Part shown: in pieces, positions 16,983 through 49,249 of the stretch
How positions within the stretch are numbered: position 1 is the stretch's first letter
Layout: each line of letters opens with the position of its first letter
Origin: Alphaproteobacteria bacterium
GTDB taxonomy: Bacteria > Pseudomonadota > Alphaproteobacteria > Sphingomonadales > Emcibacteraceae
Length of the DNA: 64,000 bases
Direction of reading: 5' to 3'
Assembly: GCA_020446675.1 (NCBI GenBank)
Contig: JAGREE010000031.1
Location: forward strand, 1 to 64,000
Made by a program: the position numbers and the translations under genes
Notes under the pieces: generated by a model
Databases searched by the model: none
Seen by the model: the letters and a program-made list of their open reading frames with translations, nothing else
Told to the model about the DNA's origin: nothing

Positions 16983-16992
16983 GGTCAGAATT

Positions 16993-17781: not shown

Positions 17782-17869
17782 GATGTGATCCTTATTTTGC
17801 TGGTCATACCCGTCATATTATATCAATATTAAAACATAATACACGTGCTTTGTTTAAATCAAGTATAGC

Positions 17870-17885
17870 TACTATTATAATAACA
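17870..17885. promoter_or_regulatory. MarR operator candidate, site 3
   Basis: TACTATTATAATAACA keeps the core and right half of the palindrome. It sits 88 bp upstream of the HD-protein start in the divergent intergenic region. Confidence 0.55.
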
Positions 17886-17926
17886 GTAAATATAAAAATA
17901 CAAGCTTGACTTCAACTTTTCTTTAC

Positions 17927-17942
17927 TGCTATTACAATAACA
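17927..17942. promoter_or_regulatory. MarR operator candidate, site 4
   Basis: TGCTATTACAATAACA keeps both ends and most of the core of the palindrome. It sits 42 bp before the hydratase start, so the divergent region has one site per direction. Confidence 0.55.
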
Positions 17943-17984
17943 CTATATTATGGTTTATAATTTACTCATCAGGAAGGATCAGGG

Positions 17985-18986: not shown

Positions 18987-19018
18987 TTGTAAGCAGAAAT
19001 CTCAAAGGGGTAAATATC

Positions 19019-20062: not shown

Positions 20063-20083
20063 TTTAATCAGGAGAGTTATAAA

Positions 20084-20770: not shown

Positions 20771-21410
20771 TATTATTTTACATGGCATGTGGCGCAGCTC
20801 TGCTTCGTACCGGGTTCGCATTGCCTTGAATTTAAAAGGTCTGCCCTATCAGCAGAAAAATTATGTTCTGGCCAATAAAGAACATAAGACAGCAGAATTT
20901 TTATCAAAAAACCCGCAAGGATTAATTCCGGCACTAGAGGTTGATGGAAAAGTTATAACCCAGTCGCTGACCATTATTGAATATCTTGATCATATAAAAG
21001 CGGAAAACAGACTTCTTCCACTTGATGTTGATGAAAGGGCGCGCGTGCAGTCAATCGCTTATTCTATTGCCTGTGAAATTCATCCGCTGAATAATCTTCG
21101 CGTCCTTCAGTATCTGAAAAATGATATGGCGCAGGATCAGGACAGCATCAATAAATGGTACAGGCATTGGGTGGCCGAAGAATTTACCGCGCTTGAAAAG
21201 AAATTGTCTGCCGATCCGGCAACCGGGAAATATTGTCATGGGGATAAGCCCGGTTTTGCGGACTGTTTTCTTATTCCCCAAATTTATAATGCGCAGAGAT
21301 TTGATTGTGATCTGTCAGGATATCCTACCCTGATGCGAATTAACAAGGCATGCTTGGAACTAAAAGCATTTAGGGAGGCGTTACCGGAAAATCAGCCGGA
21401 TGCTATTTAA
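20763..21410 (+). CDS. Glutathione-dependent maleylpyruvate (maleylacetoacetate) isomerase
   Basis: The product has 215 residues of the zeta-class glutathione S-transferase family. SSASYRVRIALNLKGLPYQ (about 11-29) is the zeta motif, with Ser-Ala where many have Ser-Cys. NPQGLIPALEVDGKVITQSLTIIEYLD forms the glutathione site. The enzyme isomerises maleylpyruvate to fumarylpyruvate in the cytoplasm with glutathione as cofactor. The start lies inside the end of the hydrolase gene. Placement between gentisate dioxygenase and the FeS protein fixes the role in gentisate breakdown. Confidence 0.9.
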   Translation: MSDIILHGMWRSSASYRVRIALNLKGLPYQQKNYVLANKEHKTAEFLSKNPQGLIPALEVDGKVITQSLTIIEYLDHIKAENRLLPLDVDERARVQSIAYSIACEIHPLNNLRVLQYLKNDMAQDQDSINKWYRHWVAEEFTALEKKLSADPATGKYCHGDKPGFADCFLIPQIYNAQRFDCDLSGYPTLMRINKACLELKAFREALPENQPDAI

Positions 21411-21432
21411 ACCTTAAAATTAGGGAGGCAGA

Positions 21433-22470
21433 ATGGGTAAGGTCAATATTGACAATGCGAGGCCAATTGTTCGTCGCACAAATGGTAATAATCCCTATTC
21501 ACCGCTCTTTATGGAACGTATGACACCAAAGGCAAGATGGTATTTTTTCATGCGGACCAAGGTGCTGCCTTCTATGCGTGATGCAGAAGTAAACCTGAGA
21601 GCAATTCCGACAAGAGATCAGTGGGTTGATAGTGAGCTGATCAGGCAAATGACAAAAGACCTTGGGGCGGATATTGTTGGTATTGCCAAATATACGCCAA
21701 GTATCCTCTATCAGGATGCCAAGATTCAAAATCATAAGACAGTAATCGTTTTCGGTATGGCAATGAAATATGACCTGATGATTGATATTGGGGCAGATTC
21801 ACAGGAAGAGGTTCACCGTGTTTATTTTGAGCTGGATGAAATTGGTGTGCGCTTAGCGCAGCGGATAGGCGCAATGGGGTTTGAAGCCAGAACCCACCCA
21901 AATACAGGGGATTTCCCCCTGCCTGCTTATGGGTATCTTGCCGGTCTCGGTGAGGTGGTGAAACATGGCTCACTCGTTTCCCCTGAACTTGGAAGTTCAT
22001 TCAGATTATCAGCCGTATCAACCGCAATGCCCCTTGTCGTAGATGGAATTCAGGATTATGGCATGGATGAGGTGTGCCAAAATTGTGGCATATGTGAACG
22101 TTTCTGTCCGGGACAGGCAATTATGCCTGAAAAACGTGAGGTGGCCGGTGTTATGCGCTGGCATGTGGACAGTGACAAATGTCAGCCGTATTTTTCCCGT
22201 CTTTATGGCTGTAAAATTTGTCTTTCTGTTTGTCCGCTGACGGCCCGGGCACCTGAAATGAGGGCAGGGTATAAGGAAATGTCAAAATCAATCCGGGAAG
22301 CGGGTGATGCGGCAGGGATGTTGAACCTGATTGATCAAAAAAACGGGTTAAATACCGATGGGTTTGATGCAATCCCCTATAATCCCGAAGACTTTGGCGG
22401 ACCTTACATTCGTAAGGCCCGCGAAGAACATGATGATAAGGATAGCCCCATTTTATTCGGGGATGATTAA
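21433..22470 (+). CDS. Reductive-dehalogenase-like corrinoid iron-sulfur protein
   Basis: The product has 345 residues. Two 4Fe-4S motifs are visible: Cys215-x2-Cys218-x2-Cys221-x3-Cys225-Pro, and Cys250-x9-Cys260-x2-Cys263-x3-Cys267-Pro. Upstream, AYGYLAGLGEVVKHGSLVSPELGSSFRLSAV matches the corrinoid-binding half of reductive dehalogenases (RdhA) and, more distantly, epoxyqueuosine reductase. It lacks the Tat signal of respiratory RdhA enzymes, so it is cytoplasmic, and it lacks the fused reductase domain of aerobic RdhA proteins. It is the last gene of the ligJ-gentisate operon, 22 bp after the isomerase, so removal of a halogen or another leaving group from a ring or ring-cleavage product is the leading idea. 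Not proven. Confidence 0.75.
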   Translation: MGKVNIDNARPIVRRTNGNNPYSPLFMERMTPKARWYFFMRTKVLPSMRDAEVNLRAIPTRDQWVDSELIRQMTKDLGADIVGIAKYTPSILYQDAKIQNHKTVIVFGMAMKYDLMIDIGADSQEEVHRVYFELDEIGVRLAQRIGAMGFEARTHPNTGDFPLPAYGYLAGLGEVVKHGSLVSPELGSSFRLSAVSTAMPLVVDGIQDYGMDEVCQNCGICERFCPGQAIMPEKREVAGVMRWHVDSDKCQPYFSRLYGCKICLSVCPLTARAPEMRAGYKEMSKSIREAGDAAGMLNLIDQKNGLNTDGFDAIPYNPEDFGGPYIRKAREEHDDKDSPILFGDD

Positions 22471-24075: not shown

Positions 24076-24224
24076 TTAATTTTTTTCCTTTATTTATATC
24101 ATTAGCTAAAGGCAATTTTTGCTGATTGAATAAAAATGAGCATGTTCCACAATTTTTATTCAGGATTGATAATATGGACATCCTATGTATATTATGGACA
24201 AAATAAAATTGGGTATTGAGATTT

Positions 24225-25583
24225 ATGGATAAAAAACATTGGGGGCCAAGCCTATCTATTCTATTATTGTCGATTATCATGCCTTTCGTAATACAGGCAC
24301 AGGAAAATAATGAAATACCCTTTGATGGGAACCCGGCCTATTCACAGACATTTAAAGAAAATATTTCCAGTGCTGTCGCTACACATCCAAGAATAGCGGC
24401 GGCGATCGCGCAACGTGATGAACAAAGATATCTGGAGGATGAGGCGAGAGCCGGTCTTTACCCGCATCTGGAAGTGGGGCTTACAGGGCGCCACAGACTT
24501 GCCGATAATTTTGAAGACAGGTTTGATAATATTACTCAGCGCAGTTTACGTGATACGGCGGCGAATGTGACTTTAACAGGACGGCAGCTTCTTTATGATG
24601 GTGGAAGTACGTCAAGCAAAATTGCCAGTGCAAGATATGCTTTTTCTGCTGCCCATGAGGAATATAGCCTGGAAGCCTCAGAAGTGGCTCTGGCGGCAAT
24701 TGAAGCACATTATTCGGTGCTGCTGCAGAGAATGAGGAGGGCTTATCATCAGGAGAATGTCGAAAGACATCGTGAAATTCTGGATATGGTCAATGAGCGT
24801 TTTAAAAGCGGGCGGGGACCAAACCGTGATGTAACACTGATGGAATCGCGGCTTGCAATCGCTGAAACAGAACAGTCTCGGGTACAGATGGAATTGGAAG
24901 AGGCGATCAGTAATTATGTGGAAGTTTATAATTTTGCACCGGAGAATTTGAAAAGACCGGCACTTGCACTCAATGTTCCAGCGTCTGAAAATGATGCATT
25001 GGAAATAGGGTTTCAAAATAATCCTATGCTGGTCATGGCTTCCTCACAGTCGCTTTCATCAAAAGAATATATGAATTCAGTACGGGCAGAAAGACTGCCA
25101 AGTGTGTCAGTTGAACTGGCCGCAACAAAATATGATCTTGAACGGGGAAATCCGGATTATGATGTGACCGGTCGGCTGGTGGTCAATTATAGTCTTTATA
25201 ACGGCGGCGCCAGTTCAGCGAGGATTTCCCGTTCCCTTAAAGGTTATGAACGGGCTCGCCATTCCGAAGATAATGTTAATAGAGAAGTGAACCGTAATAT
25301 TAAAGTGGCTTATCAGAATATGGAAAGTCAGGCGCGCCAGGTAATCAGCCTGCAAAAAGCTATGGAGGCTAGCCGAATTAACCGGGACCAGACAAGAGAG
25401 CAATTCGAGGTGACAGGTGGAAGCCTTTTTAATCTACTGGAGGCTGAGAAAGAGCATCATAATGCAAAGGAACAGCATCTTCGCGGTGTTATAGATTATG
25501 ACATAGCACAGTTTAGGTTACTGGATGCTATGGGGACATTGTTGCCCACACTCAATATTCTTATAAAAAAGGATAGCGAATGA
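24225..25583 (+). CDS. TolC-family outer-membrane protein of a type I secretion system
   Basis: The product has 452 residues from the ATG at 24225 and begins with a signal peptide (SLSILLLSIIMPFVIQAQ). It has the duplicated helical TolC pattern: SSAVATHPRIAAAIAQRDEQ near the N-terminus, then LLYDGGSTSSKI and LYNGGASSARI at the two repeat positions. TolC trimers form the outer-membrane channel and periplasmic tunnel. Its stop overlaps the ABC transporter start by 4 bp and HlyD follows, so it is the dedicated exit duct for the RTX protein encoded next. Closest in type to LapE/AggA. Confidence 0.9.
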   Translation: MDKKHWGPSLSILLLSIIMPFVIQAQENNEIPFDGNPAYSQTFKENISSAVATHPRIAAAIAQRDEQRYLEDEARAGLYPHLEVGLTGRHRLADNFEDRFDNITQRSLRDTAANVTLTGRQLLYDGGSTSSKIASARYAFSAAHEEYSLEASEVALAAIEAHYSVLLQRMRRAYHQENVERHREILDMVNERFKSGRGPNRDVTLMESRLAIAETEQSRVQMELEEAISNYVEVYNFAPENLKRPALALNVPASENDALEIGFQNNPMLVMASSQSLSSKEYMNSVRAERLPSVSVELAATKYDLERGNPDYDVTGRLVVNYSLYNGGASSARISRSLKGYERARHSEDNVNREVNRNIKVAYQNMESQARQVISLQKAMEASRINRDQTREQFEVTGGSLFNLLEAEKEHHNAKEQHLRGVIDYDIAQFRLLDAMGTLLPTLNILIKKDSE

Positions 25584-27337
25584 GTGAGGAGAATAAACCA
25601 GGCGGGGCATTGCTTGATAAAAATCATTGGTTCTGGGGGGGATTTCATCAGAACTGGTGGACTTATGGTCAGATTATCCTGGCGGCGATCATGATTAACT
25701 TCTTTTCGCTTGGCAGTTCAATTTTTATCATGACCGTTTATGACCGTGTCATACCCAATAATGCTGTTGAGAGCCTGGTTGCTCTTTGTATTGGAATGAT
25801 TATTCTGATTAGTTTTGATTTCCTTCTTAAATTTTTACGGGCGTATTTTATTGATTCTGCAGGGCAAAAAGTTGACCTTAAAGTCGCAAAAGGTATTTTT
25901 GACAGGATCATGAAATTAAAACTTGCCTCTCAGAAAGGCTCAACAGGCAGACTGGTCAATATAGTCCGTGAATTTGAAAGCCTGCGTGATTTCTGTACCT
26001 CTGCTTCTTTGGCAACATTGGTTGATATTCCATTTATACTTCTGTTTCTGACCGTCATTATTATCATTGGTGGTCCTGTTGCGATTGTTCCGGCACTGGC
26101 TATACCGATCGTTTTGTTTATCGGTATTTTTATTCAGCCATTCCTTTCGCGCTTTTCCAGTGAAGGGATGCAGCAGGGACACAGCAAACAGGGTACGCTG
26201 GTTGAAATGGTTTCCGGACTTGAAACTTTAAAAAGTCTGGGATCCGATAAATTGTTCCATGACCGCTGGGAAAAGGCCGTTGATCAGCATTCAAGTATCA
26301 GTATGAAATCCCGAATGTTCAGTCAGATCGCCATAAACAGTGCTGCAACGGCACAACAAGTGGCGCAAATAGGAATAGTTGCTGTTGGATTTGCCCGGAT
26401 TATGGACGGTGAAATGTCGATGGGGGCACTGATTGCCTGTGTTATTATATCGGGCCGCTGTCTTGCCCCGCTTGGGCAGCTTGCCAATCTGCTGACACGA
26501 TATAACCATGCCAAGACGGCTTATAACGCGCTTGATAATCTTATGGCAGAACCGAGCGAAGATACTGAAGGACGCGATTTTATCCGCCGTAATAAAATCA
26601 AAGGCAAGATTGAATTTCAGAATGTAAGCTTCAAATATCCTGGTGCCTCAGGAAAGGTCCTGGAAAATGTATCCTTTAAAGTGGAGGCCGGTGAGAAGGT
26701 TGCTATATTAGGGACAATAGGGTCCGGCAAAAGCACGATACTAAGGATTGCTGCGGGACTATATGATCCTGCAGAAGGGGCCGTTCTTCTTGATGATACT
26801 GATATCCGGCAGATCATTCCTGAAGATCTCCGTAAAAATATGGCAATGGTGTTACAGGATGTTTTCCTTTTTTCAGGCAGTATTAAGGAAAATATTACTA
26901 TGGGTGATCCGCAGATCAGTGATGACGATATTCTTCATGCAGCGGAAATAAGCGGGGTACAGGATTTCCTTGGCGGCCTGCCCAATGGTTATGACCTTCA
27001 GCTTCGTGACCGCGGTGACGGGCTTTCGGGGGGACAGAAACAGGCTATGGCCATATGTCGGACTTTGGTAAGAAAATCCCCAATTCTGATGATGGATGAA
27101 CCGACAAGTTCTATGGATACCGGATCCGAACAAAAACTTATTTACCGGCTTAAGGAAGAGCTTAAGGAAAAAACCCTTCTGGTGGTCACGCACAGACCGA
27201 CGATGCTTGACCTTGTTGACCGCATCATCGTTATTGAAAAAGGGAAAATTGTCGCTAATGGCCCCAAAGATGATGTCATCAGAATGCTGACACCCAAGGG
27301 AAGTGATCCCAATCTGGCAAAACGGGGGAAAGCATGA
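25580..27337 (+). CDS. Type I secretion ABC transporter (LapB/HlyB-like, no C39 domain)
   Basis: The product has 585 residues. The N-terminal half is a six-helix exporter domain (for example FFSLGSSIFIMTVYDRVIPNN). The ATPase half has Walker A GTIGSGKST, signature LSGGQKQ, Walker B ILMMDEPTS and the H-loop VVTHRPT. The order and DRVIPNNA motif are those of type I secretion exporters. There is no room for the N-terminal C39 or C39-like domain of HlyB or LapB, so substrate docking must rely on the core. It is inner-membrane, dimeric, and acts with the flanking TolC and HlyD proteins. Confidence 0.92.
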   Translation: MSEENKPGGALLDKNHWFWGGFHQNWWTYGQIILAAIMINFFSLGSSIFIMTVYDRVIPNNAVESLVALCIGMIILISFDFLLKFLRAYFIDSAGQKVDLKVAKGIFDRIMKLKLASQKGSTGRLVNIVREFESLRDFCTSASLATLVDIPFILLFLTVIIIIGGPVAIVPALAIPIVLFIGIFIQPFLSRFSSEGMQQGHSKQGTLVEMVSGLETLKSLGSDKLFHDRWEKAVDQHSSISMKSRMFSQIAINSAATAQQVAQIGIVAVGFARIMDGEMSMGALIACVIISGRCLAPLGQLANLLTRYNHAKTAYNALDNLMAEPSEDTEGRDFIRRNKIKGKIEFQNVSFKYPGASGKVLENVSFKVEAGEKVAILGTIGSGKSTILRIAAGLYDPAEGAVLLDDTDIRQIIPEDLRKNMAMVLQDVFLFSGSIKENITMGDPQISDDDILHAAEISGVQDFLGGLPNGYDLQLRDRGDGLSGGQKQAMAICRTLVRKSPILMMDEPTSSMDTGSEQKLIYRLKEELKEKTLLVVTHRPTMLDLVDRIIVIEKGKIVANGPKDDVIRMLTPKGSDPNLAKRGKA

Positions 27338-28599
27338 TTAAGCCAAAATTTGCCGCCAATATTCTCCTGCTCAGTATATTCGGGTTTTTTGTTCTTTTTA
27401 TTTTATGGGCATCTTTTGCTGAACTTGATGAAGTGACAAAAGCACCGGGACGGATTGTACCGAGTAAGCAGATCCAAGTGATCCAAAATTTGGAAGGAGG
27501 TATAATCAAGGAAATTCTGGTCAGTCAGGGGGATGAGGTAAAAGCCGGTGATGTGCTTGTGCGACTTGACCGTACCCAGTTTGATGCCGATTTTAACCGA
27601 AATGAAGAAGAATATTTATCGCTTGAAGCCAAGATTGCGCGTCTAAAAGCGGAAAGCGAATTTATCACGCCGGTTTTTGATGAAAATCTTGTCAAAAACC
27701 ATGAAAATCTGATTGCCCGGGAAATTAACCTTTTTAATGCGAGAAAGGCGGAATTTGACGCAACCATTAGCAGTCTGGAAGCACGTTTAAGGCAAATAGA
27801 GCAGGCGCAGATTGAAGCGGAGGTCAGTCTGGTCAGTGCCAAATCTGCTAGTGAACTGGCAATAACAGAAGTCGAGACGCTAAAGCCGCTTGTTGAACGT
27901 GGGATCGAACCCCAGCTTGAGCTGATCCGGGCGGAACAAAGAAAAATAGAAGCCGAAGGGGATCACCGCAAAGCAGAGCTTGGCATTGAAAAGGCCAAAA
28001 AATCTGTGGAAGAAACCAATTTGCAGATTGAAGCGGAAAGACAAAAGTTTCGTGCCAGTGTTCTTAATGAACTCAATGAAACACAGACCGATCGAAATCA
28101 ACTGCTTGATAGTATGCCGACCCTTTCCGACAGAGTAAACAGAACCGATGTCATCGCACCAACGGATGGCATTATAAATCAGGTGCTGGTCACGACCATC
28201 GGCGGTATTGTTGACAGCGGAATGCCGATTGTTGAACTTGTCCCTCTTGACGATACATTGCTGGTGGAGGCGGAGGTTAAGCCATCGGACATTGCCTTTC
28301 TCCGGCCTGGTCAGCAGGCAAGGGTAAAACTGACGGCATATGATTATGCGCGCTATGGCTCTCTGGAGGGCAATGTTGAAAATATTAGTGCCGGTGCGAT
28401 AATGAACGATCAGGAACAATATGTTTATGTTATTAAGGTTCGGACAAAAGAAAACAGCCTTCCATCCACTGAGGGGGATCTGCCAATCCTTCCGGGTATG
28501 GTTGCCGAAGTGGATATCCTGAACGGCAAAAAAACAATCATGCGCTATTTGATGAACCCGGTGCTTAAGCTCAAGGATAATGCCTTTAGGGAAAGGTAG
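27334..28599 (+). CDS. HlyD-family membrane fusion protein
   Basis: The product has 421 residues with one N-terminal transmembrane segment (NILLLSIFGFFVLFILWASFAELDE). GRIVPSKQIQVIQNLEGGIIKEILV is the first half of the biotinyl-lipoyl domain and is diagnostic for HlyD/LapC. A long coiled coil (about 100-245) follows. The second lipoyl half (APTDGIINQVLVTTIGGIV) and a C-terminal beta-barrel end with KTIMRYLMNPVLKLKDNAFRER. It bridges the ABC exporter and the TolC channel in the periplasm. It starts inside the last codons of the ABC gene. Confidence 0.92.
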   Translation: MIKPKFAANILLLSIFGFFVLFILWASFAELDEVTKAPGRIVPSKQIQVIQNLEGGIIKEILVSQGDEVKAGDVLVRLDRTQFDADFNRNEEEYLSLEAKIARLKAESEFITPVFDENLVKNHENLIAREINLFNARKAEFDATISSLEARLRQIEQAQIEAEVSLVSAKSASELAITEVETLKPLVERGIEPQLELIRAEQRKIEAEGDHRKAELGIEKAKKSVEETNLQIEAERQKFRASVLNELNETQTDRNQLLDSMPTLSDRVNRTDVIAPTDGIINQVLVTTIGGIVDSGMPIVELVPLDDTLLVEAEVKPSDIAFLRPGQQARVKLTAYDYARYGSLEGNVENISAGAIMNDQEQYVYVIKVRTKENSLPSTEGDLPILPGMVAEVDILNGKKTIMRYLMNPVLKLKDNAFRER

Positions 28600-28735
28600 T
28601 TTTTTGTAATTTTTTAGCAAAAGAAAATTAATTTTAAGTGTTTGGTTAACAAAATACTAATAAAAAAGCTTGCCAAGTCCTATTTTAGAATTTAACGTGT
28701 TTTGAGTACTTATGTGTTAATTCAGGGGGGGTAAA

Positions 28736-31075
28736 ATGTATTTTCCTATACTTAAATCAGCAGAAATTTTCTATAAAAAGCCAAATCAAAATTATGTAAT
28801 AAATAGTCGGGCAGTTAAATACAGCAGCTCCGGGCTTGCATTATTATCACTTGCAGCATGTGGTGGAGATGGAGCAAGCCCAACAACCGCTGCTCCGCCT
28901 GCAAGTGGGGGCGGCGGCGTAACCACTCCACAGGTTGCCGGATTTACAGAGATTTCGACCAATACTTTTCTTGCCAATAATGATCTGGATAGTGTTTTTA
29001 ACAGATCCACAAGTACCGCGGACCTTACCGTGTCTGGAGCGGGTGGCGATGATACAATTATAACAGGGTCGGGGGATGACTATTTATTTGGTCAAAGTGG
29101 GAATGATACCCTCCAAGGTGGCGCGGGTGTTGATGTCCTGACTGGTGGTTCGGGTGCAGATAATTTGGTTGGTGGGCCCGGTTTTGACTTTGTAGCCTAC
29201 ATTGACTCACCGGGAGGTGTAACGGTTAATCTTGCGTCCGGGGTCGGTTCCCGAAATGACGCTTCTGGGGATAGCTATAATACTGTTGAAGGGGTTTTTG
29301 GCAGTGATTATAACGACATAATTACAGGAAATTCGAGTGACAATTTGTTCGAAGGGTTAGGAGGAGCCGATATTTATGATGGCGGGGCAGGTGAAGATTA
29401 TGTTGCATATACGTCTTCTTCTTTCAGAGTTATTGCTGATCTTAGTTCCGGCTCTGGAAGTCTTGGTGATGCTCAGGGTGATAGCTACACGAATATAGAA
29501 GGGATAATTGGAAGTAATTACGATGACACTCTAACAGGTGACGCACTGGATAATTATTTTGAAGGCGGTGATGGTAACGATACCATAAATGGTGGCGACG
29601 GAAATGATTTAATTTTTGGTCTTGTTGGTAATGACACAATAAACGGTGAAAATGGCAATGATATCCTTTCCGGTGGCGATGGGGGAGACACAATAAACGG
29701 TGGTGCCGGTTTTGATTTAATCTCAGGAGATGCCGGAAATGATATAATCAATGGTGGAGATGATCAGGACCTGATTTATGGGAATAACGGCAATGATACC
29801 ATATTTGGCGGCACCGGATGGGATATTATCGAAGGAGGTCAGGGTTCTGACACGATTGATGGTGAAGCTGATAAGGCTGTTCTGAGCTATGCTTTATCAA
29901 CAGCAGGTGTAACGATAAATTTGGCAACCAATTCTGCATCTGGCGGTGACGCGACTGGAGATACGTTTACAAACATTGATGGTGTTTTTGGCTCAACCCA
30001 TAATGATGTTCTTACAGGCGATGATGAAGATAATTATCTGGATGGTGATGAAGGTTCAGATATACTATCCGGCGCTGGTGGGGATGACTATTTTTACGCC
30101 TATCAGTCAGAAGGGTCCGCTACGGAAGATCAGTTTGATGGAGGTGATGGCTTTGATAAACTTGATCTTATCGGCTCAAGTGCAATAACAACATTTGCAG
30201 TCGACTTGTCCACTGTGGATGCAGTTAACATAGAAGAAGTCCGTATGGGACATGATTATAGAGAAAGCCTTACTCTTACAAACCAGGATGTAATTGATGT
30301 AACGGATGCTGATAATTTTCTGGTTATTTTGGGACATGATACAGATTCTGTAAGTAGTGGCTCAGTCTGGGCATATACTATGGATGTTATGTATGACGGG
30401 GAAATTTATCATCAGTATACAGGCACCGGAACGGAAGTGCTTGTTTATACGGAAATTGGGTCACAATCCGGGTTTGCTAAACCAGCAGCCAGCTTCACAG
30501 AAACAACAACCAATGTTTTTGATGCTGTAGATAATAACGATTCAACATTAAGCAAGACACATGTAACAGTTGGATTGACAGTAAACGGAAAAGACGGTGA
30601 CGATCTAATCGCAACCGGTGATGGGAATGATACCATTAACGGTGGTAACGGGAATGATACACTCCGTGGTAATGGAGGAGTTGATTTTTTAAATGGTGAC
30701 GCAGGTGACGATATATTGATTTATGATGGTGTCACCACGACTTATGATGGCGGCGCAGACAGCGATACTTTATTATTTGTTTACGAAGCAGATGGGATTG
30801 ATTTATCAACGTTAACACTGACAAATATCGAGACTATTGATCTGGATACTGAAAATGCGAATAGCTTGACCCTGGTGGCTCAGGATGTGCTTGATGTGAC
30901 CGATGGCGGAAATCAGCTTATTGTTGCCGGTGACGGTGAAGACGCAGTAACGTCAACGGGACAGGGATGGGTGCAGGGCGCAGATCAGATTATTGATACA
31001 AAAACCTATCACAGTTATACTTCAGGTGCTGCAACGCTATTGATTGATGACGATATTATGCAGACGATCAGCTAA
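28736..31075 (+). CDS. RTX-type calcium-binding repeat protein, probable type I secretion substrate
   Basis: The product has 779 acidic, Gly/Asp-rich residues. Residues 30-45 (YSSSGLALLSLAACGG) look like a short hydrophobic lipobox segment with Cys42, followed by a low-complexity Thr/Ala/Gly linker. Three blocks of GGxGxDxUx nonapeptides (about 101-143, 277-379 and 619-660) would form calcium-binding beta-rolls. Three 60-70 residue modules of the GVTVNLASG...GDSYNTVEGVFGS type lie between them. The C-terminal 195 residues repeat an earlier stretch. It follows the TolC-ABC-HlyD operon by 136 bp, so it is the natural cargo: an adhesin or matrix protein rather than a toxin, as no enzymatic domain is seen. 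Confidence 0.82.
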   Translation: MYFPILKSAEIFYKKPNQNYVINSRAVKYSSSGLALLSLAACGGDGASPTTAAPPASGGGGVTTPQVAGFTEISTNTFLANNDLDSVFNRSTSTADLTVSGAGGDDTIITGSGDDYLFGQSGNDTLQGGAGVDVLTGGSGADNLVGGPGFDFVAYIDSPGGVTVNLASGVGSRNDASGDSYNTVEGVFGSDYNDIITGNSSDNLFEGLGGADIYDGGAGEDYVAYTSSSFRVIADLSSGSGSLGDAQGDSYTNIEGIIGSNYDDTLTGDALDNYFEGGDGNDTINGGDGNDLIFGLVGNDTINGENGNDILSGGDGGDTINGGAGFDLISGDAGNDIINGGDDQDLIYGNNGNDTIFGGTGWDIIEGGQGSDTIDGEADKAVLSYALSTAGVTINLATNSASGGDATGDTFTNIDGVFGSTHNDVLTGDDEDNYLDGDEGSDILSGAGGDDYFYAYQSEGSATEDQFDGGDGFDKLDLIGSSAITTFAVDLSTVDAVNIEEVRMGHDYRESLTLTNQDVIDVTDADNFLVILGHDTDSVSSGSVWAYTMDVMYDGEIYHQYTGTGTEVLVYTEIGSQSGFAKPAASFTETTTNVFDAVDNNDSTLSKTHVTVGLTVNGKDGDDLIATGDGNDTINGGNGNDTLRGNGGVDFLNGDAGDDILIYDGVTTTYDGGADSDTLLFVYEADGIDLSTLTLTNIETIDLDTENANSLTLVAQDVLDVTDGGNQLIVAGDGEDAVTSTGQGWVQGADQIIDTKTYHSYTSGAATLLIDDDIMQTIS
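29564..29872 (+). repeat. RTX nonapeptide repeat block
   Basis: About eleven tandem 27-bp units encode GGxGNDxIx nonapeptides (GGDGNDTIN, GGDGNDLIF and so on). The DNA units are diverged, so the array is constrained at protein level. Ca2+-induced folding after export is the known role. Confidence 0.85.
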
Positions 31076-31968
31076 CTGACATTTTCGGCCTGTTCCAATA
31101 ACCATTTCCTGAGGGCTACGACGGGGGCATAGCCCGAATGACTTGAGGGCGTGATCAGATAATAACCGGCACTGTTCACAAGGGGAACATTCATTAAAAT
31201 TTCCAGCTCACCCCTTTCAAGTTCTGTCTTAATCAGGAAATGAGGAAGAATGGCAACGCCAAGTCCGGCAACGGCCGCCTGGGTTACCATAGAAAACTGT
31301 TCCAAAATCATGCCGCGACTGTTGGGTGGTGTTATATAATTTTGTTTGAACCAGTCCGCCCAGGCATTGGGTCGGGTTTCCAGATGCAAAAGAGGAATGC
31401 GGGCAATTTCTTCAGCACTTCTGATCATATGATCACCAATGAGTGATGGAGCCGCGACAGGTACTGCTTCCTCGCTCATTAAAAATGTCCCTTCCGTTCC
31501 CGGCCAGTTGGGATGTCCGAAATGGATGGCGCAGTGAAGCTCTTCATTCGCAAAATCAAATGGGGAAAGTTTGCTGGTAAAATTCACGGTAATTTGAGGG
31601 TTTTTTGCAAGAAAGTCAGGAAAACGCGGCATCAGCCAACGCATACCAAATGTAGGCAATATTGCAAAATTTAAGGTCTGCCCCTGGGTGTCACTTACGG
31701 CATTAAGAGAAGCGTTACGGATCAGCCTTAAAGCGCCGGCAATTTCAGTTGCGTATTTTTCCCCAACATCTGTCAGGATAATGGATTTTTTAATTCGTTT
31801 GAATAATTTAATCCCCAGCTGTTCTTCAAGAGCATTTACCTGCCTGCTTATGGCTCCCTGGGTCAGGTTAAGCTCCTGAGCTGCGAGAGTGAAGCTGCCG
31901 TTTCGCGCTGATGCTTCAAAGGCCATAAGCATACTGGTGCTTGGTATCAGTCTTCTTTGTCCCAGCAT
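31072..31968 (-). CDS. LysR-family transcriptional regulator (GcvA-like)
   Basis: The product has 298 residues. The N-terminal winged helix is FEASARNGSFTLAAQELNLTQGAISRQVNALEEQLG. The rest is a periplasmic-binding-like co-inducer domain (LNFAILPTFGMRWLMPRFPDFLAKNP is typical of GcvA/AmpR-type members). Its stop overlaps the RTX gene by 4 bp, so the genes are convergent. Its start faces the aminomutase operon at 32146 across 177 bp, the classic layout for a LysR protein controlling a divergent catabolic operon with an amino-acid or organic-acid ligand. The ligand is inferred only. Confidence 0.9.
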   Translation of the reverse strand: MLGQRRLIPSTSMLMAFEASARNGSFTLAAQELNLTQGAISRQVNALEEQLGIKLFKRIKKSIILTDVGEKYATEIAGALRLIRNASLNAVSDTQGQTLNFAILPTFGMRWLMPRFPDFLAKNPQITVNFTSKLSPFDFANEELHCAIHFGHPNWPGTEGTFLMSEEAVPVAAPSLIGDHMIRSAEEIARIPLLHLETRPNAWADWFKQNYITPPNSRGMILEQFSMVTQAAVAGLGVAILPHFLIKTELERGELEILMNVPLVNSAGYYLITPSSHSGYAPVVALRKWLLEQAENVS

Positions 31969-32145: not shown

Positions 32146-33558
32146 ATGAATGTTCAAAGTCCAGTAAGAAAAAAGCATATCCCAACCGATAAAGAAGCAG
32201 ATTTTCTTTCCAAAGTGGAAAATGCAAAATATGACCGGAAAATCGTTGCCGGTCTTCAAAAATTCATTGACGGAAAAGTTGATGATGACATGAAAGATTT
32301 TTACAGCCAGGAAGAAATTGATGCCATTTCTGCCCTTAAAGGGACTAATCGTGATCTTGAAGCCCGTATGCCTGTTAAAATTACCCGTCATTATTTTGAG
32401 CGCGCCCGTGTCAGTGCCCCTCTTCGCACCCTGATTAAAGCAAGTCCTGCTGAAACCTTTGATCTTGAAGGTTCTGAAGACCCAGGAAAGCAAATGAGCT
32501 ACAGCCCGGTTGAAGGGCTTATTCATAAATATGAGCTCGGGCTTATCTATGTGGCGGGGACATGTTCCGCACATTGTCGTTTTTGTTACCGTGAAGAATT
32601 GATTGCCAAGAAGGAAATCGTTCGTGAAGATGGGTCAATTCAGGCAAAAGGCCTGGCCCAAATTCCTGATCTGGTTGAATATATTGTTGAGCATAATAAA
32701 ATTGTGGCTGAAAATGGCGGTCATCATCCTAAGACAGGACGTGAAAAGCTCCGGGAAATACTGATGTCCGGCGGTGACCCAATGGTTCTGGCCAATAAGG
32801 GGATAGCTTCATGGTGGGCAGCGCTTGCAGAAGCTGGTATTGAAAGCATCAGACTTGGAACAAAAGAACTTGCTTTCTTCCCTGATCGTTTTGATGATGC
32901 ATTCTTTAAAATGATGGATGATTTTCATGCAGCATATCCTGAAACAAAACTGCGCTTTATGATTCATTTTAATCATCCTGATGAATTCCTCGATAAAGAT
33001 GAGAACGGCAATTATATTGATCTGCCAGATGGCGGTCTTAAATGGGTTGAGAGCACCCAACGTGCGATCAGAGAGTTTGGCAAACGTAATTTTGTGACGG
33101 TCGATAACCAAGCTCCGATTATTAAAAATATCAATAATGACCCTGATGCGCTCCGTATCATGCAGCGTGAACTTCGTCGCAACAAAGTTGAAAACCATTA
33201 TTTCTTCTGTGGACGTGATATTGTTGGTCATAAAGCGTTTAACGTTCCAATTGAAGAAGCCTGGCGTATTCTGAATACCTCTCAACGTGGTCTGTCCGGT
33301 GTTGAGGCCCATGCCCGGCTTTCAATCACCCATTATTATGGCAAAACCGAAGTTGTTGCGGTTACAAATGAGCCGATGGAAGGGGTAAAAGGCGCAGAAA
33401 ATGGCGTAGTGATCTTTAAGCTTCTTCGTTCTGCTGAAGATGCGCCGAAAAAAGGTCAGGTAGCGATTGTTGGACGAAACCCTGATGCTATTTGGTTTGA
33501 TGGTTTTAAAGACCGTGTCATTTACGACGAAGCAGGTCTTTTCAGCATTAAAGCCTAA
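32146..33558 (+). CDS. KamA-family radical SAM 2,3-aminomutase (acidic amino acid substrate predicted)
   Basis: The ATG at 32146 after AAGGGGCG gives 470 residues; the upstream in-frame ATG at 32080 lacks a ribosome-binding site. GTCSAHCRFCYRE gives the radical SAM CX3CX2C cluster ligands Cys140, Cys144 and Cys147. Arg149 matches the KamA Arg that holds PLP or carboxylate, SGGD is 208-211 and Lys400 is the expected PLP Schiff-base Lys. By hand alignment, KamA Asp293, which binds the lysine epsilon-amino group, becomes Arg357, and Asp330 is also lost. The enzyme should shift an amino group from C2 to C3. The residue swap suggests a substrate with a side-chain carboxylate, like the Lys found there in glutamate 2,3-aminomutase. 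First gene of a five-gene operon. Confidence 0.85.
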   Translation: MNVQSPVRKKHIPTDKEADFLSKVENAKYDRKIVAGLQKFIDGKVDDDMKDFYSQEEIDAISALKGTNRDLEARMPVKITRHYFERARVSAPLRTLIKASPAETFDLEGSEDPGKQMSYSPVEGLIHKYELGLIYVAGTCSAHCRFCYREELIAKKEIVREDGSIQAKGLAQIPDLVEYIVEHNKIVAENGGHHPKTGREKLREILMSGGDPMVLANKGIASWWAALAEAGIESIRLGTKELAFFPDRFDDAFFKMMDDFHAAYPETKLRFMIHFNHPDEFLDKDENGNYIDLPDGGLKWVESTQRAIREFGKRNFVTVDNQAPIIKNINNDPDALRIMQRELRRNKVENHYFFCGRDIVGHKAFNVPIEEAWRILNTSQRGLSGVEAHARLSITHYYGKTEVVAVTNEPMEGVKGAENGVVIFKLLRSAEDAPKKGQVAIVGRNPDAIWFDGFKDRVIYDEAGLFSIKA

Positions 33559-33579: not shown

Positions 33580-34290
33580 ATGATCAATAAACAATTAAGT
33601 TCGGTCCACGAAGCGGTGGCAGGCATCCATGATGGTGCCACCGTTATGATCGGCGGGTTCGGTGAGGCGGGTAGCCCTATTGAACTTATCCATGCCCTGA
33701 TCGATCAGGGAGCCAAGGACCTTACGGTCATCAATAATAATACGGGTTCCGGTCATGTCGGCCTTGCCGCGCTGATTGAAAACAGACGAGTGGCCAAAAT
33801 GATATGTTCATTTCCAAAATCAGCAAATTCATTTGTGTTTCCTGATCTCTATACCAAGGGGGAAATCGAACTGGAATTGGTGCCTCAAGGGACTTTGGCC
33901 GAACGCATTCGCGCAGGTGGTGCTGGTGTTCCGGCTTTTTATACGGCAACGTCCGTTGGAACACCCCTTGCCGAAGGTAAGGAGGTCCGCAATATTAAAG
34001 GTCGTGATTACGTGCTTGAATATGGACTGACCGCTGATTTTGCCTTGATAAAATCATTAAAAGCAGATCGTTATGGAAACCTGATTTATAATAAAACGGC
34101 CCGAAATTTTGCACCGGTTATGGCAATGGCCGCGAAAACGACAATAGTTCAAACCAAAGAATTTGTGGAAGCAGGCAGTATTGATCCTGAAATTGTGGTG
34201 ACCCCAAGCATTTTCGTGGATTTAGTGGTTGAAGTTCCAAACCCACTACACGAATCTGAACTTGTTAAAGCCGGGGAGACATATCCATGA
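33580..34290 (+). CDS. pcaI: 3-oxoadipate CoA-transferase subunit A (PcaI-like)
   Basis: The product has 236 residues of the CoA-transferase family I alpha subunit. GATVMIGGFGEAGSPIELIHAL, VINNNTGSGHVGLAALI, CSFPKSANSFVF, IELELVPQGTLAERIRAGGAG and ARNFAPVMAMAAKTTIVQ follow PcaI closely, segment by segment. With subunit B it transfers CoA from succinyl-CoA to 3-oxoadipate. It starts 21 bp after the aminomutase gene and overlaps pcaJ by 4 bp. Related SCOT and AtoDA enzymes act on acetoacetate, but the downstream PcaF-type thiolase supports 3-oxoadipate. Confidence 0.88.
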   Translation: MINKQLSSVHEAVAGIHDGATVMIGGFGEAGSPIELIHALIDQGAKDLTVINNNTGSGHVGLAALIENRRVAKMICSFPKSANSFVFPDLYTKGEIELELVPQGTLAERIRAGGAGVPAFYTATSVGTPLAEGKEVRNIKGRDYVLEYGLTADFALIKSLKADRYGNLIYNKTARNFAPVMAMAAKTTIVQTKEFVEAGSIDPEIVVTPSIFVDLVVEVPNPLHESELVKAGETYP

Positions 34291-34937
34291 GTGAACAAGA
34301 AATTGGCTGGAACCGTGAACAGATGGCGGAGCGCGCGGCTCAGGATATACCAAACGGCGCTTATGTAAATCTGGGTATAGGAATTCCTGAAAAAGTGGTG
34401 CGCTACGTGCCTGCCGGTCGTGAAGTGATTTATCATACAGAAAATGGCCTGCTCGGCATGGGGGATGCGCCTGCACCCGGCGAGGAAGACCCGGAACTAA
34501 TTAATGCTGGGAAAAAACTTGTTACGGCCATTCCGGGTGCTGCATATTTTCATCATGCAGACAGCTTTTCCATGATCCGCGGCGGGCATATTGATATTTG
34601 TGTGCTTGGTGCCATGCAAGTTGCTGAAAATGGCGATCTGGCCAATTGGTCAACTGGAAGTTCAGATGATATCCCAGCTGTGGGTGGTGCAATGGATCTT
34701 GTTGCAGGTGTAAAAACAATCAATGTCATTACCCAGCATGTTACAAACAAGGGGTACCCGAAACTCGTTTCCAAATGCACATTTCCCCTGACCGGCGTTG
34801 GTGTTGTGAGCCGGATATACACAGACCTTGCAGTGATTGATGTAACGCCGCAAGGCTTTAAAATTGTTGAACTCGCCCCCGGGGTTGATTTCGATTATGT
34901 ACAGGAAAGAACCGGCTGCAAGCTTATTGCCGCATAA
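34287..34937 (+). CDS. pcaJ: 3-oxoadipate CoA-transferase subunit B (PcaJ-like)
   Basis: The product has 216 residues of the CoA-transferase beta subunit. AQDIPNGAYVNLGIGIPEKVVRYVP and HTENGLLGMGDAP contain the catalytic Glu of the ENG motif. GGHIDICVLGAMQV and the C-terminal ELAPGVDFDYVQERTGC are typical of PcaJ. The gene start overlaps pcaI by 4 bp, as is usual for these two-subunit transferases. Together they produce 3-oxoadipyl-CoA and succinate in the cytoplasm. Confidence 0.88.
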   Translation: MSEQEIGWNREQMAERAAQDIPNGAYVNLGIGIPEKVVRYVPAGREVIYHTENGLLGMGDAPAPGEEDPELINAGKKLVTAIPGAAYFHHADSFSMIRGGHIDICVLGAMQVAENGDLANWSTGSSDDIPAVGGAMDLVAGVKTINVITQHVTNKGYPKLVSKCTFPLTGVGVVSRIYTDLAVIDVTPQGFKIVELAPGVDFDYVQERTGCKLIAA

Positions 34938-34948
34938 AGGAAAAAATA

Positions 34949-36256
34949 ATGTCAAAAAGCTCTGAACTCTATGAACGCGGCCTTAAGGTCATGCCAGGTG
35001 GCTGCAGCCGAAATACAATTTTAAGAAAACCCCATCCGCTTTACGTGGAAAAAGGCGAAGGCTGTTATGTTACGGATGTCGAGGGTATAACCCGCGTTGA
35101 TTTTGCAAATAATATGTGTTCGCTTATTCATGGGCATGCTCATCCGGCGGTGGTGGCTGCGGTCAGTGAGCAACTTGCCAAAGGGACCGCTTTTACCATC
35201 GGTACTGAAGTGGAAATTGATTATGCTGAGCATATTGTCAGCAGAAGCAAATCTTTTGAAAAAATGCGGTTTGTGAATTCTGGAACCGAAGCGGTTATGA
35301 GCTGTATTAAAGCCGCACGGGCATTTACAGGCAAGTCAAAAATTGCCAAGGCGGAAGGTGCTTACCATGGTCTTTATGATTATGCTGAGGTCAGCCAGAC
35401 ATCAAAACCTGAAAATTGGGGCGATGCCGATAAACCAAGTAGCGTTCCTGTGGCATATGGCACACCGAAAGCAGCGCTTGACGATGTGATCATCATTCCT
35501 TTTAACGAACCTGATCGTGCCATAAAAATATTAGAGGAAAATGCCGATGATATTGCGTGTGTTCTGCTGGATGTCATGCCGCACCGGATTGGTCTCATTC
35601 CTGCGAGTGATGAATTTGCCAGAAGCATATATAACTGGACACGCAAAAATAAAAGTCTTCTGGTTTTTGATGAGGTCATTACGTTCCGCTCCAACTATGG
35701 TGGGGCCCAAGAATGGTATGAGGGTGTGTTGCCTGACCTTACCGCCATGGGCAAAATGATCGGCGGCGGTTTTCCTGTTGGTGCACTTGCCGGGCGGGCG
35801 GATGTTATGGATGTTATGGATCCGTTAGCGAGCAAAGTATTGTTCCCGCATTCCGGGACTTTCTCTGCAAATCCAATTACGATGACTGCAGGGCTTGTTT
35901 CCATGAAACTGTTTGACCGGAACGCTGTGCTAAAGCTGAATAATCTTGCTGATTATGCGCGGGATAGCCTTAATGAAGCGATAAAAATTGCTGACGTTCC
36001 TGTTTGCGTGACTGGTGAAGGGTCTATGTTCCGTATACATATGAAGGAAACAGCACCGGTCAGTTATCGTGACGGCTATGTCACACCGGCTGAAGCGGCA
36101 CTGACAAAAACCCTTCTTGATCATTTATTTGATGATGGCATCATGATGATTAATACCTGTACCGGTGTATTATCGACTGTGATGAAGGAAAAAGAAATTG
36201 ACCGTCTTGCTGAAGCTGTGCTTAGTGGTCTGAAGAAAATGAAAAATCAGTTTTAG
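34949..36256 (+). CDS. Class III aminotransferase, beta-amino-acid / GSA-aminomutase-like
   Basis: The product has 435 residues of fold-type I PLP enzymes. RFVNSGTEAVMSCIKAARAFTG is the cofactor phosphate region, LLVFDEVITFR holds Asp241 and AMGKMIGGGFPVGAL holds the PLP Lys269. The closest types are glutamate-1-semialdehyde aminomutase-like proteins, including beta-phenylalanine aminotransferases of almost the same length. A haem-pathway role is unlikely because the gene sits between CoA-transferase and thiolase genes. It is the natural partner of an aminomutase: it would convert the beta-amino acid to the 3-oxoacid used by the CoA-transferase. Substrate inferred. Confidence 0.85.
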   Translation: MSKSSELYERGLKVMPGGCSRNTILRKPHPLYVEKGEGCYVTDVEGITRVDFANNMCSLIHGHAHPAVVAAVSEQLAKGTAFTIGTEVEIDYAEHIVSRSKSFEKMRFVNSGTEAVMSCIKAARAFTGKSKIAKAEGAYHGLYDYAEVSQTSKPENWGDADKPSSVPVAYGTPKAALDDVIIIPFNEPDRAIKILEENADDIACVLLDVMPHRIGLIPASDEFARSIYNWTRKNKSLLVFDEVITFRSNYGGAQEWYEGVLPDLTAMGKMIGGGFPVGALAGRADVMDVMDPLASKVLFPHSGTFSANPITMTAGLVSMKLFDRNAVLKLNNLADYARDSLNEAIKIADVPVCVTGEGSMFRIHMKETAPVSYRDGYVTPAEAALTKTLLDHLFDDGIMMINTCTGVLSTVMKEKEIDRLAEAVLSGLKKMKNQF

Positions 36257-36264
36257 AAGGTTAA

Positions 36265-37467
36265 ATGATGAAGAATGTTTTTATTTGTGATGCGATCAGA
36301 ACTCCGGTCGGTCGTTATGGTGGCGGGTTATCATCTGTTCGTGCTGATGACCTGGCCGCTGCGCCGATTTCGGCACTGATGGACAGAAATAAAAACGTTG
36401 ATTGGGATGCTATAGATGATGTGGTTTATGGCTGTGCCAATCAGGCTGGCGAAGATAACCGCAATGTTGGGCGGATGGCAACGCTTCTGGCTGGGTTATC
36501 CGAGAAGGTCGCGGCAACAACGGTGAACCGACTTTGCGGTTCCGGTCTTAATGCCATTGGAATTGCCGCTAATTCCATAGCCGTTGGTGAAGGTAATTTA
36601 ATGATCGCAGGTGGTGTGGAAAGCATGTCCAGGGCACCTTTTGTCATTGGCAAAGGGGAAGGACCTTATGACCGGGGTCAGCAGATGTATGACACAACAA
36701 TGGGCTGGCGCTTTATCAATAAAAAACTTGAAAAACAATATGGCAGTGATGCGATGCCGCGCACGGCCGAGAACCTGGCCGAAGAACTGAATATCAGTCG
36801 CGAGGATCAGGATCAATTCGCCTTTTGGAGCCAGAGTAAGGCCGCCGCCGCGATAGAGGCAGGATATACGGCAAAAGAGATTGCGGCAGTGTCAGTACCG
36901 CAAAGACGCGGCGATCCAATTATTATTGAAAATGACGAACATCCGCGTCAGACAAATCTGGAAAAAATGGCAGCGCTCAGACCGATTTTTGAAGGGGGCA
37001 CGATAACAGCGGGAAATGCGTCAGGTATTAATGATGGTGCAGGTGCAATATTAATTGCTTCAGAAGTTGCAGCAGCAAAACATGGCCTAAAGCCACGTGC
37101 CAGAATATTGGGAATGGCTGTTGCGGGTGTTCCGCCAAGAACCATGGGGATCGGCCCGGTTCCGGCAAGCCAAAAGCTTCTGGCCCGTATCGGGCTTTCG
37201 CTTGATGACATGGATATTCTGGAGCTTAATGAGGCCTTTGCCGCACAGGTGCTTGCCTGTACCCGGACATTGGGTATTGCAGATAACGATCCGCGAATTA
37301 ACCCGCAGGGTGGTGCCATTGCATTTGGGCACCCATTGGGGATGAGTGGTGTTCGCCTGGTGACAACAGCCCTAAACCAGTTGGAGCGGACAGGCGGCAG
37401 ATACGCACTCTGCACAATGTGTATTGGTGTTGGCCAGGGTATAGCTCTGGTAATTGAACGGGTTTAA
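36265..37467 (+). CDS. pcaF: 3-oxoadipyl-CoA thiolase (PcaF-like)
   Basis: The product has 400 residues. CDAIRTPVGRYGGGLSSVRADDLAA opens the protein. The nucleophile Cys lies in TVNRLCGSGLNAIG, and AIAFGHPLGMSGVR and LCTMCIGVGQG give the other active-site residues. A thiolase sub-family marker is the stretch MSRAPFVIGKGEGPYDRGQQ followed by a DTT.GWRFIN segment, which matches beta-ketoadipyl-CoA thiolases far better than acetoacetyl-CoA thiolases. It cleaves 3-oxoadipyl-CoA to succinyl-CoA and acetyl-CoA. It is the last gene of the operon, 8 bp after the aminotransferase. Confidence 0.92.
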   Translation: MMKNVFICDAIRTPVGRYGGGLSSVRADDLAAAPISALMDRNKNVDWDAIDDVVYGCANQAGEDNRNVGRMATLLAGLSEKVAATTVNRLCGSGLNAIGIAANSIAVGEGNLMIAGGVESMSRAPFVIGKGEGPYDRGQQMYDTTMGWRFINKKLEKQYGSDAMPRTAENLAEELNISREDQDQFAFWSQSKAAAAIEAGYTAKEIAAVSVPQRRGDPIIIENDEHPRQTNLEKMAALRPIFEGGTITAGNASGINDGAGAILIASEVAAAKHGLKPRARILGMAVAGVPPRTMGIGPVPASQKLLARIGLSLDDMDILELNEAFAAQVLACTRTLGIADNDPRINPQGGAIAFGHPLGMSGVRLVTTALNQLERTGGRYALCTMCIGVGQGIALVIERV

Positions 37468-48445: not shown

Positions 48446-49249
48446 TTAATCAAATAATCCTAAGCCATTTTCTTTGATGAAATCATGAATATGAAAAGCG
48501 AGAATTTCCGGTTGCTCAATTGGGGGAAGGTGCCCGGCTCCGTCAATACGGACGAAGGTCGCATCTTCAATCATCATAGCCATATCCTGAACATTTTTGG
48601 GAGTGGTAACCAAATCTTCGTCACTGGCTATGCATAGGGCAGGCACTGTAATCTTTTCAACAACATGACTTAGATCTGTAATCCGGAGGGCTTCGCAGGT
48701 TGCCACATACCCTTCCAGAGTTGTTCGTGTAAGCATATTTTTCCACCCCACGATTTCGGCTTTATTTTCTGACTTGAATCGGGCAGAAAACCATCTGTCC
48801 AATATGGCATCGGCTTGTGAGTTAATTCCCTCGTTTTTAATCAGCTTGATACGTTCTTTCCAGAATTCTTCCGTTCCGATCCGCGGCGAAGTATTGCAAA
48901 GGATCACCCCCCTTAACCGGTTTGGGAATGAGCTTGCAACCTGTTGGGCAATCATACCGCCGACAGAGATGCCGCAAAGAATGGCTTTCTCGATTTTCAG
49001 GTAATCCATCAGGGCAATAACGTCCTGACTCAGCAATTTAATGGTATAGGGCGTGTTTGAAATATCTGACAATCCATGGCCACGTTTATCAAAGCGGATG
49101 ATGCGGTATGACTTATCAAGATATTTTGATAGGCTGTCCCAAAGTCTAAGATCAGTACCCAGAGAATTACAGAATATAATCACCGGGCCTTTTCGGGAGC
49201 CCGTATCTTTATAGTGTATATTAGTGTCATTAATTGATGCAATTTTCAT
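48446..49249 (-). CDS. pcaD: 3-oxoadipate enol-lactonase (PcaD-like alpha/beta hydrolase)
   Basis: The product has 267 residues, an alpha/beta hydrolase. The nucleophile is in CGISVGGMIAQ, the oxyanion HG region is VIIFCNSLGTDLRLWDSL, and the acid and His lie in ASDEDLVTTP and IDGAGHLPPIEQP. FCNSLGTDLRLWD and RFDKRGHGLSD are typical of PcaD, which opens 3-oxoadipate enol-lactone to 3-oxoadipate. It would feed the PcaIJF enzymes at 33.6-37.5 kb. No pcaGHBC genes are in the window, so upstream steps must be elsewhere or the substrate is another ester or lactone. Confidence 0.78.
   Translation of the reverse strand: MKIASINDTNIHYKDTGSRKGPVIIFCNSLGTDLRLWDSLSKYLDKSYRIIRFDKRGHGLSDISNTPYTIKLLSQDVIALMDYLKIEKAILCGISVGGMIAQQVASSFPNRLRGVILCNTSPRIGTEEFWKERIKLIKNEGINSQADAILDRWFSARFKSENKAEIVGWKNMLTRTTLEGYVATCEALRITDLSHVVEKITVPALCIASDEDLVTTPKNVQDMAMMIEDATFVRIDGAGHLPPIEQPEILAFHIHDFIKENGLGLFD

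Follow-up and report, generated by a model that had tools for sequence, protein, structure and literature searches.

The window analysed here is a 64,000-nucleotide stretch of an alphaproteobacterial contig (JAGREE010000031.1). It contains a putative KamA-family aminomutase gene at the head of a compact run of genes on the forward strand, a divergent regulator gene and, further downstream, a gene for a second source of 3-oxoadipate (PcaD):

31072..31968, minus strand: LysR regulator (GcvA-like), divergent from the operon and kept beside the aminomutase in relatives
32146..33558, plus strand: putative KamA-family radical SAM/PLP aminomutase, 470 aa
33580..34290, plus strand: 3-oxoacid CoA-transferase subunit A (PcaI/ScoA), TIGR02429 350 against a cut-off of 128.5
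34287..34937, plus strand: 3-oxoacid CoA-transferase subunit B (PcaJ/ScoB), TIGR02428 297 against a cut-off of 243.6, with Glu52 in an ENGLLG motif
34949..36256, plus strand: class III aminotransferase, proposed to be a 3-aminoadipate transaminase, best PDB match 6k8h (4.7e-111)
36265..37467, plus strand: 3-oxoadipyl-CoA thiolase PcaF, TIGR02430 equivalog 662.7 against a cut-off of 597
48449..49249, minus strand: PcaD 3-oxoadipate enol-lactonase, TIGR02427 298.9 against a cut-off of 255.9, 11 kb downstream

The aminomutase reading frame opens with ATG, and the sequence GGGGCG lies a short way 5' of it. The gaps from the aminomutase through CoA-transferase subunits A and B and the transaminase to PcaF are 21, −4, 11 and 8 bases. 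A genome search for PcaF gave this single match and no second copy. The position of PcaD, 11 kb away, shows that 3-oxoadipate is handled in this genome; it backs the assigned substrate of PcaF, yet it also offers PcaF another job. Genes close to PcaD encode an ABC transporter and, at 46731-47945, a member of the cystathionine gamma-synthase family.

The class III aminotransferase resembles glutamate-1-semialdehyde (GSA) aminomutase in NCBIfam, but it scores below the cut-off, and its match to 6k8h (4.7e-111) compares with approximately 1e-62 for the solved GSA aminomutases. The 6k8h entry is StoTA, a transaminase with activity measured on beta-amino acids (PMC10589169). The proposed carboxylate residue of StoTA, R36, corresponds to R21 here. 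The position of StoTA Ser41 (position 26) is basic in the 19 loci compared, Lys in one and Arg in the others; as a suggestion only, this residue might bind a second carboxylate.

A gentisate-type cluster at 14520-22467 encodes a 3-hydroxybenzoate 6-monooxygenase-like protein and a gentisate 1,2-dioxygenase (531.9 against a cut-off of 442.1). A further gene of the cluster, at 21433-22467, encodes a reductive-dehalogenase-like protein that falls below its cut-off (93 against 160). Type I secretion genes (TolC-like, ABC and membrane-fusion) follow at 24216-31075, ending in a 779-aa RTX-like repeat protein that directly precedes the LysR gene. A similar set is found at this place in some relatives (L026 and L064) and is absent there from others. 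The same genome has another uncharacterised catabolic cluster (L060, 8957-13334; G000:C140). Its two genes resembling intradiol dioxygenases score under the PcaG/PcaH cut-offs, and a homologue of the beta-keto acid cleavage enzyme and a class III aminotransferase are encoded close by.

Family and pocket of the aminomutase

The closest solved sequence relative of the 470-aa protein, and the sole significant one, is KAM (PDB ID: 2a5h; E 1.4e-10). The protein stays below the cut-offs of all the curated models it matches: broad KamA (TIGR00238, 87.3 bits against 199.2), glutamate 2,3-aminomutase (TIGR04368, Glu_2_3_NH3_mut, 83.6 bits against 650), arginine 2,3-aminomutase (TIGR04468, 79.7 against 600), EpmB (TIGR03821, 78 against 369.3), an AblA-like model (72 bits against 396) and lys_2_3_AblA (TIGR03820, 68.7 against 525.4). 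On these scores it is outside the lysine, glutamate and arginine 2,3-aminomutase families as the curated models define them. A TIGR00238 search of the genome found no further KamA-family gene. Matches to the aminomutase at E 1e-30 occur in 2 of 398 genomes of a Pseudomonadota sample and in 24 of 149 genomes of the order.

In its workings, the protein would be like a KamA-type aminomutase. Membership in the broad family rests on the CxxxCxxC motif, the alpha-carboxylate Arg and the PLP lysine, all of which are present, and on the fold of an AF2 model compared with 2a5h. The reference KAM is that of Clostridium subterminale, whose sequence was verified letter by letter against 2a5h. In this enzyme, D293 and D330 bind the epsilon-amine of the substrate and R134 binds the carboxylate. 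The main alignment was made with L-INS-i and included KAM, AblA, EpmB and other plasmid-borne KamA proteins; it was used instead of a six-sequence MAFFT alignment that put the KAM PLP loop in the wrong place. The codons of the pocket residues were confirmed in the DNA:

32563..32586, plus strand: CxxxCxxC [4Fe-4S]/SAM motif, C140-C144-C147, equal to C125/C129/C132 of 2a5h and invariant
32590..32592, plus strand: codon of R149, equal to KAM R134 (alpha-carboxylate), invariant in 101 of 101 aligned rows
33214..33216, plus strand: codon of R357, at the KAM D293 position
33322..33330, plus strand: codons of S393-I394-T395, the KAM D330 region, non-acidic in the 470-aa protein
33343..33345, plus strand: codon of K400, equal to the KAM PLP lysine, Lys337

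An earlier note, made by hand alignment, had claimed that the two lysine-binding Asp residues are replaced by Arg357 and by a non-acidic residue near Ser393-Thr395, and that the catalytic Cys, Arg149 and PLP Lys400 are kept. The alignment to KAM bears out both claims. R357 pairs with D293 without a gap for at least nine residues on each side (VRPYYIYQC-D in KAM, VENHYFFCG-R here). The counterpart of D330 is S393 in the L-INS-i alignment and T395 in a second one, depending on where the gap is placed. Both acidic ligands of KAM are thus missing. P0002, a bridging homologue that is 34% identical and comes from a different family of Alphaproteobacteria, also places its Arg over D293 of 2a5h in an ungapped phmmer stretch. 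R149, R357, D358, S393, T395 and K400 are invariant in 19 orthologues that are 71-93% identical to the query.

The AF2 model was built from 60 sequences and has a pLDDT of 84.6; an earlier model from 19 close orthologues (pLDDT 57.8, below 50 in the pocket) was set aside. The model superimposes on 2a5h with a Z score of 30.4 over 316 residues (27-421 of the model on 19-356 of the chain), compared with 13.1 for the next-best radical SAM fold. R357 immediately follows the barrel strand 349-355, beyond its C-terminal end. Active sites of such barrels lie at the C-terminal ends of the strands. The superposition puts R357 at this end of the barrel and gives no placement outside the pocket, the outcome that the earlier note had named as refuting its reading. 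We infer the geometric role of R357 from KAM.

Spread of the Arg residue and of the gene set

The loss of both Asp residues that bind the epsilon-amine argues against lysine as the substrate. Viral contigs were scanned with a mixed profile (A3), which gave 80 loci and 79 usable homologues gathered blind to the residue at 293; scans with A1, P0002 or a Rhizobium protein as the query gave no matches. Column 293 is Asp in all 79 of these viral-contig homologues, and column 330 is acidic (Asp or Glu) in nearly all. Masking the diagnostic columns gave a tree in which a single branch, with support of 100/99, separates the 11 Arg rows from the rest. The Asp/Arg split takes one change on this tree, a number as low as which was reached in 0 of 500 shuffles, with some long branches meeting within the Arg side.

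Proteins from Rhizobium, Paenibacillus and Streptomyces/Nonomuraea also have Arg at the 293 position, as does one more subfamily within the Alphaproteobacteria. Further basic positions around the PLP site are altered in this clade as well (KAM R112 is K, and R116 is lost). Its members in G355 (L032), Rhizobium (L042), Streptomyces (L043), Nonomuraea (L080) and Paenibacillus (L041) are approximately 25-40% identical to the query, likewise carry Arg at 293 and no acid at 330, and fall in the same 100/99 clade. Where their neighbors were read, these differ: Rhizobium has ATP-grasp genes beside the KamA-like gene, Streptomyces has an NRPS, and G355 has a class I aminotransferase. The swap from Asp to Arg looks like one old, clade-marking event in these sequences and not a recent change in the operon at 32146.

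L032 (8931-11862, minus strand), from another alphaproteobacterial family, represents a second subfamily of the clade, in which the adjoining aminotransferase is of class I and not class III. The Rhizobium plasmid protein at L042 5983-7074, beside ATP-grasp genes, and the Streptomyces plasmid protein at L043 5620-6924, beside NRPS, are both annotated as lysine 2,3-aminomutase and lack both lysine-binding Asp residues; this annotation is probably wrong in both cases. L041 and L080 carry no annotation and likewise lack both Asp residues.

The earlier note took the positive residue as a sign of a side-chain carboxylate on the substrate and as independent support for 2-aminoadipate or glutamate. 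The direction of the first claim holds, as the loss of both Asp residues points away from lysine and probably toward an acidic side chain. The second claim was put too strongly. Since the Arg is clade-wide and occurs in unlike gene contexts, it is no independent evidence for 2-aminoadipate. R357 speaks against the lysine-binding mode, but alone it names no substrate. The gene context is what favors 2-aminoadipate over glutamate.

The aminomutase and the transaminase occur together in 17 of 25 related loci, two Chloroflexota MAGs among them, in either relative orientation, and most of the remaining loci stop at a contig edge. In three (L010, L013 and L016), neither the transaminase nor the CoA-transferase stands beside the aminomutase. 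The two Chloroflexota MAGs have a shorter form of the set, with only the aminomutase and the transaminase together. The conjugative plasmid MesoLj113b2 of Mesorhizobium sp. 113-3-3 encodes an aminomutase homologue that is 68.5% identical; after it come the genes for the ferredoxin fdxA and the transaminase, and a CoA-transferase pair that differs in type and matches no PcaI/PcaJ model.

Supply of 2-aminoadipate and the proposed route

The genome encodes a Lys1-like (lysine-forming) saccharopine dehydrogenase (7.8e-75 to 2q99) and, adjoining it, a Lys9-like (glutamate-forming) one (2.8e-42 to 1e5l). An L-piperidine-6-carboxylate dehydrogenase (794.6 against a cut-off of 730) is also present, with a LysM-like regulator, below cut-off, upstream of its gene. 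The distance between the saccharopine pair and the aminomutase is approximately 10 kb in genome G441. By these assignments, the conversion of lysine to 2-aminoadipate is encoded in the genome, as is that of 3-oxoadipate to succinyl-CoA and acetyl-CoA. With both pathway ends encoded, the aminomutase and a beta-transaminase are precisely the two steps that would join them.

We predict that the gene at 32146-33558 encodes a radical SAM, PLP-dependent L-2-aminoadipate 2,3-aminomutase feeding the 3-oxoadipate route, an assignment we hold to be somewhat better than an even bet. 2-Aminoadipate would be derived from lysine via the saccharopine branch. SAM bound to the CxxxCxxC [4Fe-4S] cluster would give the 5'-deoxyadenosyl radical, and the substrate would be carried as a PLP aldimine, with Lys400 binding PLP in the resting enzyme. 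R149 would grip the alpha-carboxylate, and R357, at the position of KAM Asp293, would pair with the carboxylate at the far end. Movement of the amino group from C2 to C3 would then turn L-2-aminoadipate into 3-aminoadipate; we infer this interconversion, and its direction, from the gene context. The class III aminotransferase would convert 3-aminoadipate to 3-oxoadipate, the PcaIJ-type CoA-transferase would activate it, and cleavage by PcaF would yield succinyl-CoA and acetyl-CoA. The oxygen sensitivity of a radical enzyme does not in itself conflict with carriers that are presumably aerobic or facultative, as EpmB functions in E. coli.

The substrate might instead be another acidic amino acid, with glutamate going to beta-glutamate or with 2-aminopimelate, and R357 binding that side-chain carboxylate. 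R357 suits any distal carboxylate, TIGR04368 ranks second among the NCBIfam matches of the protein, and glutamate 2,3-aminomutase is already a known kind of enzyme; one presumed example is the incednine protein IdnL4 (PMC11284099). We nevertheless consider this unlikely and place 2-aminoadipate ahead of glutamate because of the 3-oxoadipyl-CoA thiolase, the genes from lysine to 2-aminoadipate and a TIGR04368 score far under its cut-off. Glutamate fits the thiolase poorly, since thiolysis of 3-oxoglutaryl-CoA would yield malonyl-CoA, and the encoded supply of 2-aminoadipate counts against the other acids too.

That the Arg at 293 is structural or related to PLP, for example in a salt bridge with D358, is likewise unlikely in our judgement. 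R357 would then contact no carboxylate, and the enzyme would act on a neutral or other amino acid to give a beta-keto acid through the same transaminase. The invariance of the Arg through a deep clade with several dissimilar gene contexts fits such a role, as do the invariance of D358 in the query family and the other changes at basic PLP-site positions. However, in KAM the residue at 293 is the ligand on the substrate side at its distal end, both acidic ligands vanish together, and the downstream enzymes indicate a C6 dicarboxylate.

A quite improbable arrangement is that the CoA-transferase and thiolase serve aromatic degradation with PcaD, which is at most 11 kb away, and that the aminomutase-transaminase pair belongs to an unrelated pathway as a mere neighbor. 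The two Chloroflexota loci with that pair alone are in keeping with it. PcaD, however, is outside the operon and on the opposite strand, the five genes form a tight run (gaps of −4 to 21 bases), and the grouping recurs in the other orientation and, on the Mesorhizobium plasmid, with a CoA-transferase pair not of this type. A lysine 2,3-aminomutase, whose beta-lysine would feed an osmolyte or undergo transamination and then cleavage into 4-aminobutyryl-CoA and acetyl-CoA, agrees with the fold, the catalytic residues and the annotation of remote relatives but is highly improbable, given the absence of both lysine-binding Asp residues, the low lys_2_3_AblA score and the lack of a beta-lysine acetyltransferase gene among the aminomutase neighbors.

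If the enzyme is an L-2-aminoadipate 2,3-aminomutase, the wider proposal is a lysine route that leaves 2-aminoadipate by an amino shift and reaches 3-oxoadipate, where it would merge with the beta-ketoadipate pathway without passing through 2-oxoadipate or glutaryl-CoA. We give this route, with enzyme and route both undescribed, an even chance. Its proposed carriers are Emcibacteraceae/Kordiimonadaceae-type marine alphaproteobacteria, Chloroflexota MAGs and the conjugative Mesorhizobium plasmid.

Other exits from 2-aminoadipate were considered. The 2-oxoadipate hydroxylase HglS was absent from 21 of 21 genomes tested, which rules it out there as a rival exit. A glutaryl-CoA dehydrogenase homologue is present (83% over the C-terminal 70 aa, the query being a human GCDH segment); it adjoins a succinate-glutarate-type CoA-transferase, below cut-off, and occurs in genomes both with and without the aminomutase. 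With these two genes, lysine may leave by the usual 2-oxoadipate/glutaryl-CoA or glutarate route, and the new route is not required. Across the order, the Lys1-like gene is found in 16 of 24 aminomutase carriers compared with 16 of 125 non-carriers. Within the family the figures are 15 of 22 and 7 of 10 (p 0.69), and the gene is missing from G421, G431, G460 and G463, all carriers with nearly complete genomes. This co-occurrence is confounded by phylogeny, and we do not count it as support, since it vanishes within the family.

To our knowledge, radical SAM 2,3-aminomutases are known just for lysine, glutamate, arginine and EF-P lysine, and we know of no described 2-aminoadipate 2,3-aminomutase family. 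Literature searches on 3-aminoadipate metabolism gave just two matches, a meteorite paper and an incidental reference title. If true, the proposal would reveal a path by which carbon from lysine reaches succinyl-CoA and acetyl-CoA by way of 3-oxoadipate, and it would correct annotations of lysine 2,3-aminomutase across the Arg clade. The replacement of two acids by Arg, if a real rule, would be a simple substrate predictor for many proteins that bear this name.

Comparison with known systems

The 470-aa protein and KAM (2a5h) are alike in fold, in the CxxxCxxC motif, in the R134 equivalent, in the PLP lysine and at the Y288 and Q258 positions, with approximately 23% identity overall. The changes from KAM are D293 to R357, D330 to S393/T395, R112 to K, the loss of R116 and Y287 to H. 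Glutamate 2,3-aminomutase is of the same superfamily and is reported with a basic residue, Lys, at the D293 position, where the protein described here has Arg. Unlike that enzyme, the present one is encoded in a catabolic operon with a terminal 3-oxoadipyl-CoA thiolase. The class III aminotransferase of the operon keeps the counterpart of StoTA Arg36, and its role with beta-amino acids is putative here.

The final two steps of the proposed route are those of the beta-ketoadipate pathway (PcaD, PcaIJ and PcaF), with PcaF over its equivalog cut-off. That pathway is entered from aromatics, whereas the proposed entry here is from an amino acid via the aminomutase and the transaminase. With saccharopine/2-aminoadipate lysine degradation, the genome shares both saccharopine dehydrogenases and the piperidine-6-carboxylate dehydrogenase. 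The known continuations from 2-aminoadipate go through 2-oxoadipate, either to glutaryl-CoA or by HglS to 2-hydroxyglutarate, whereas the proposed route would bypass 2-oxoadipate.
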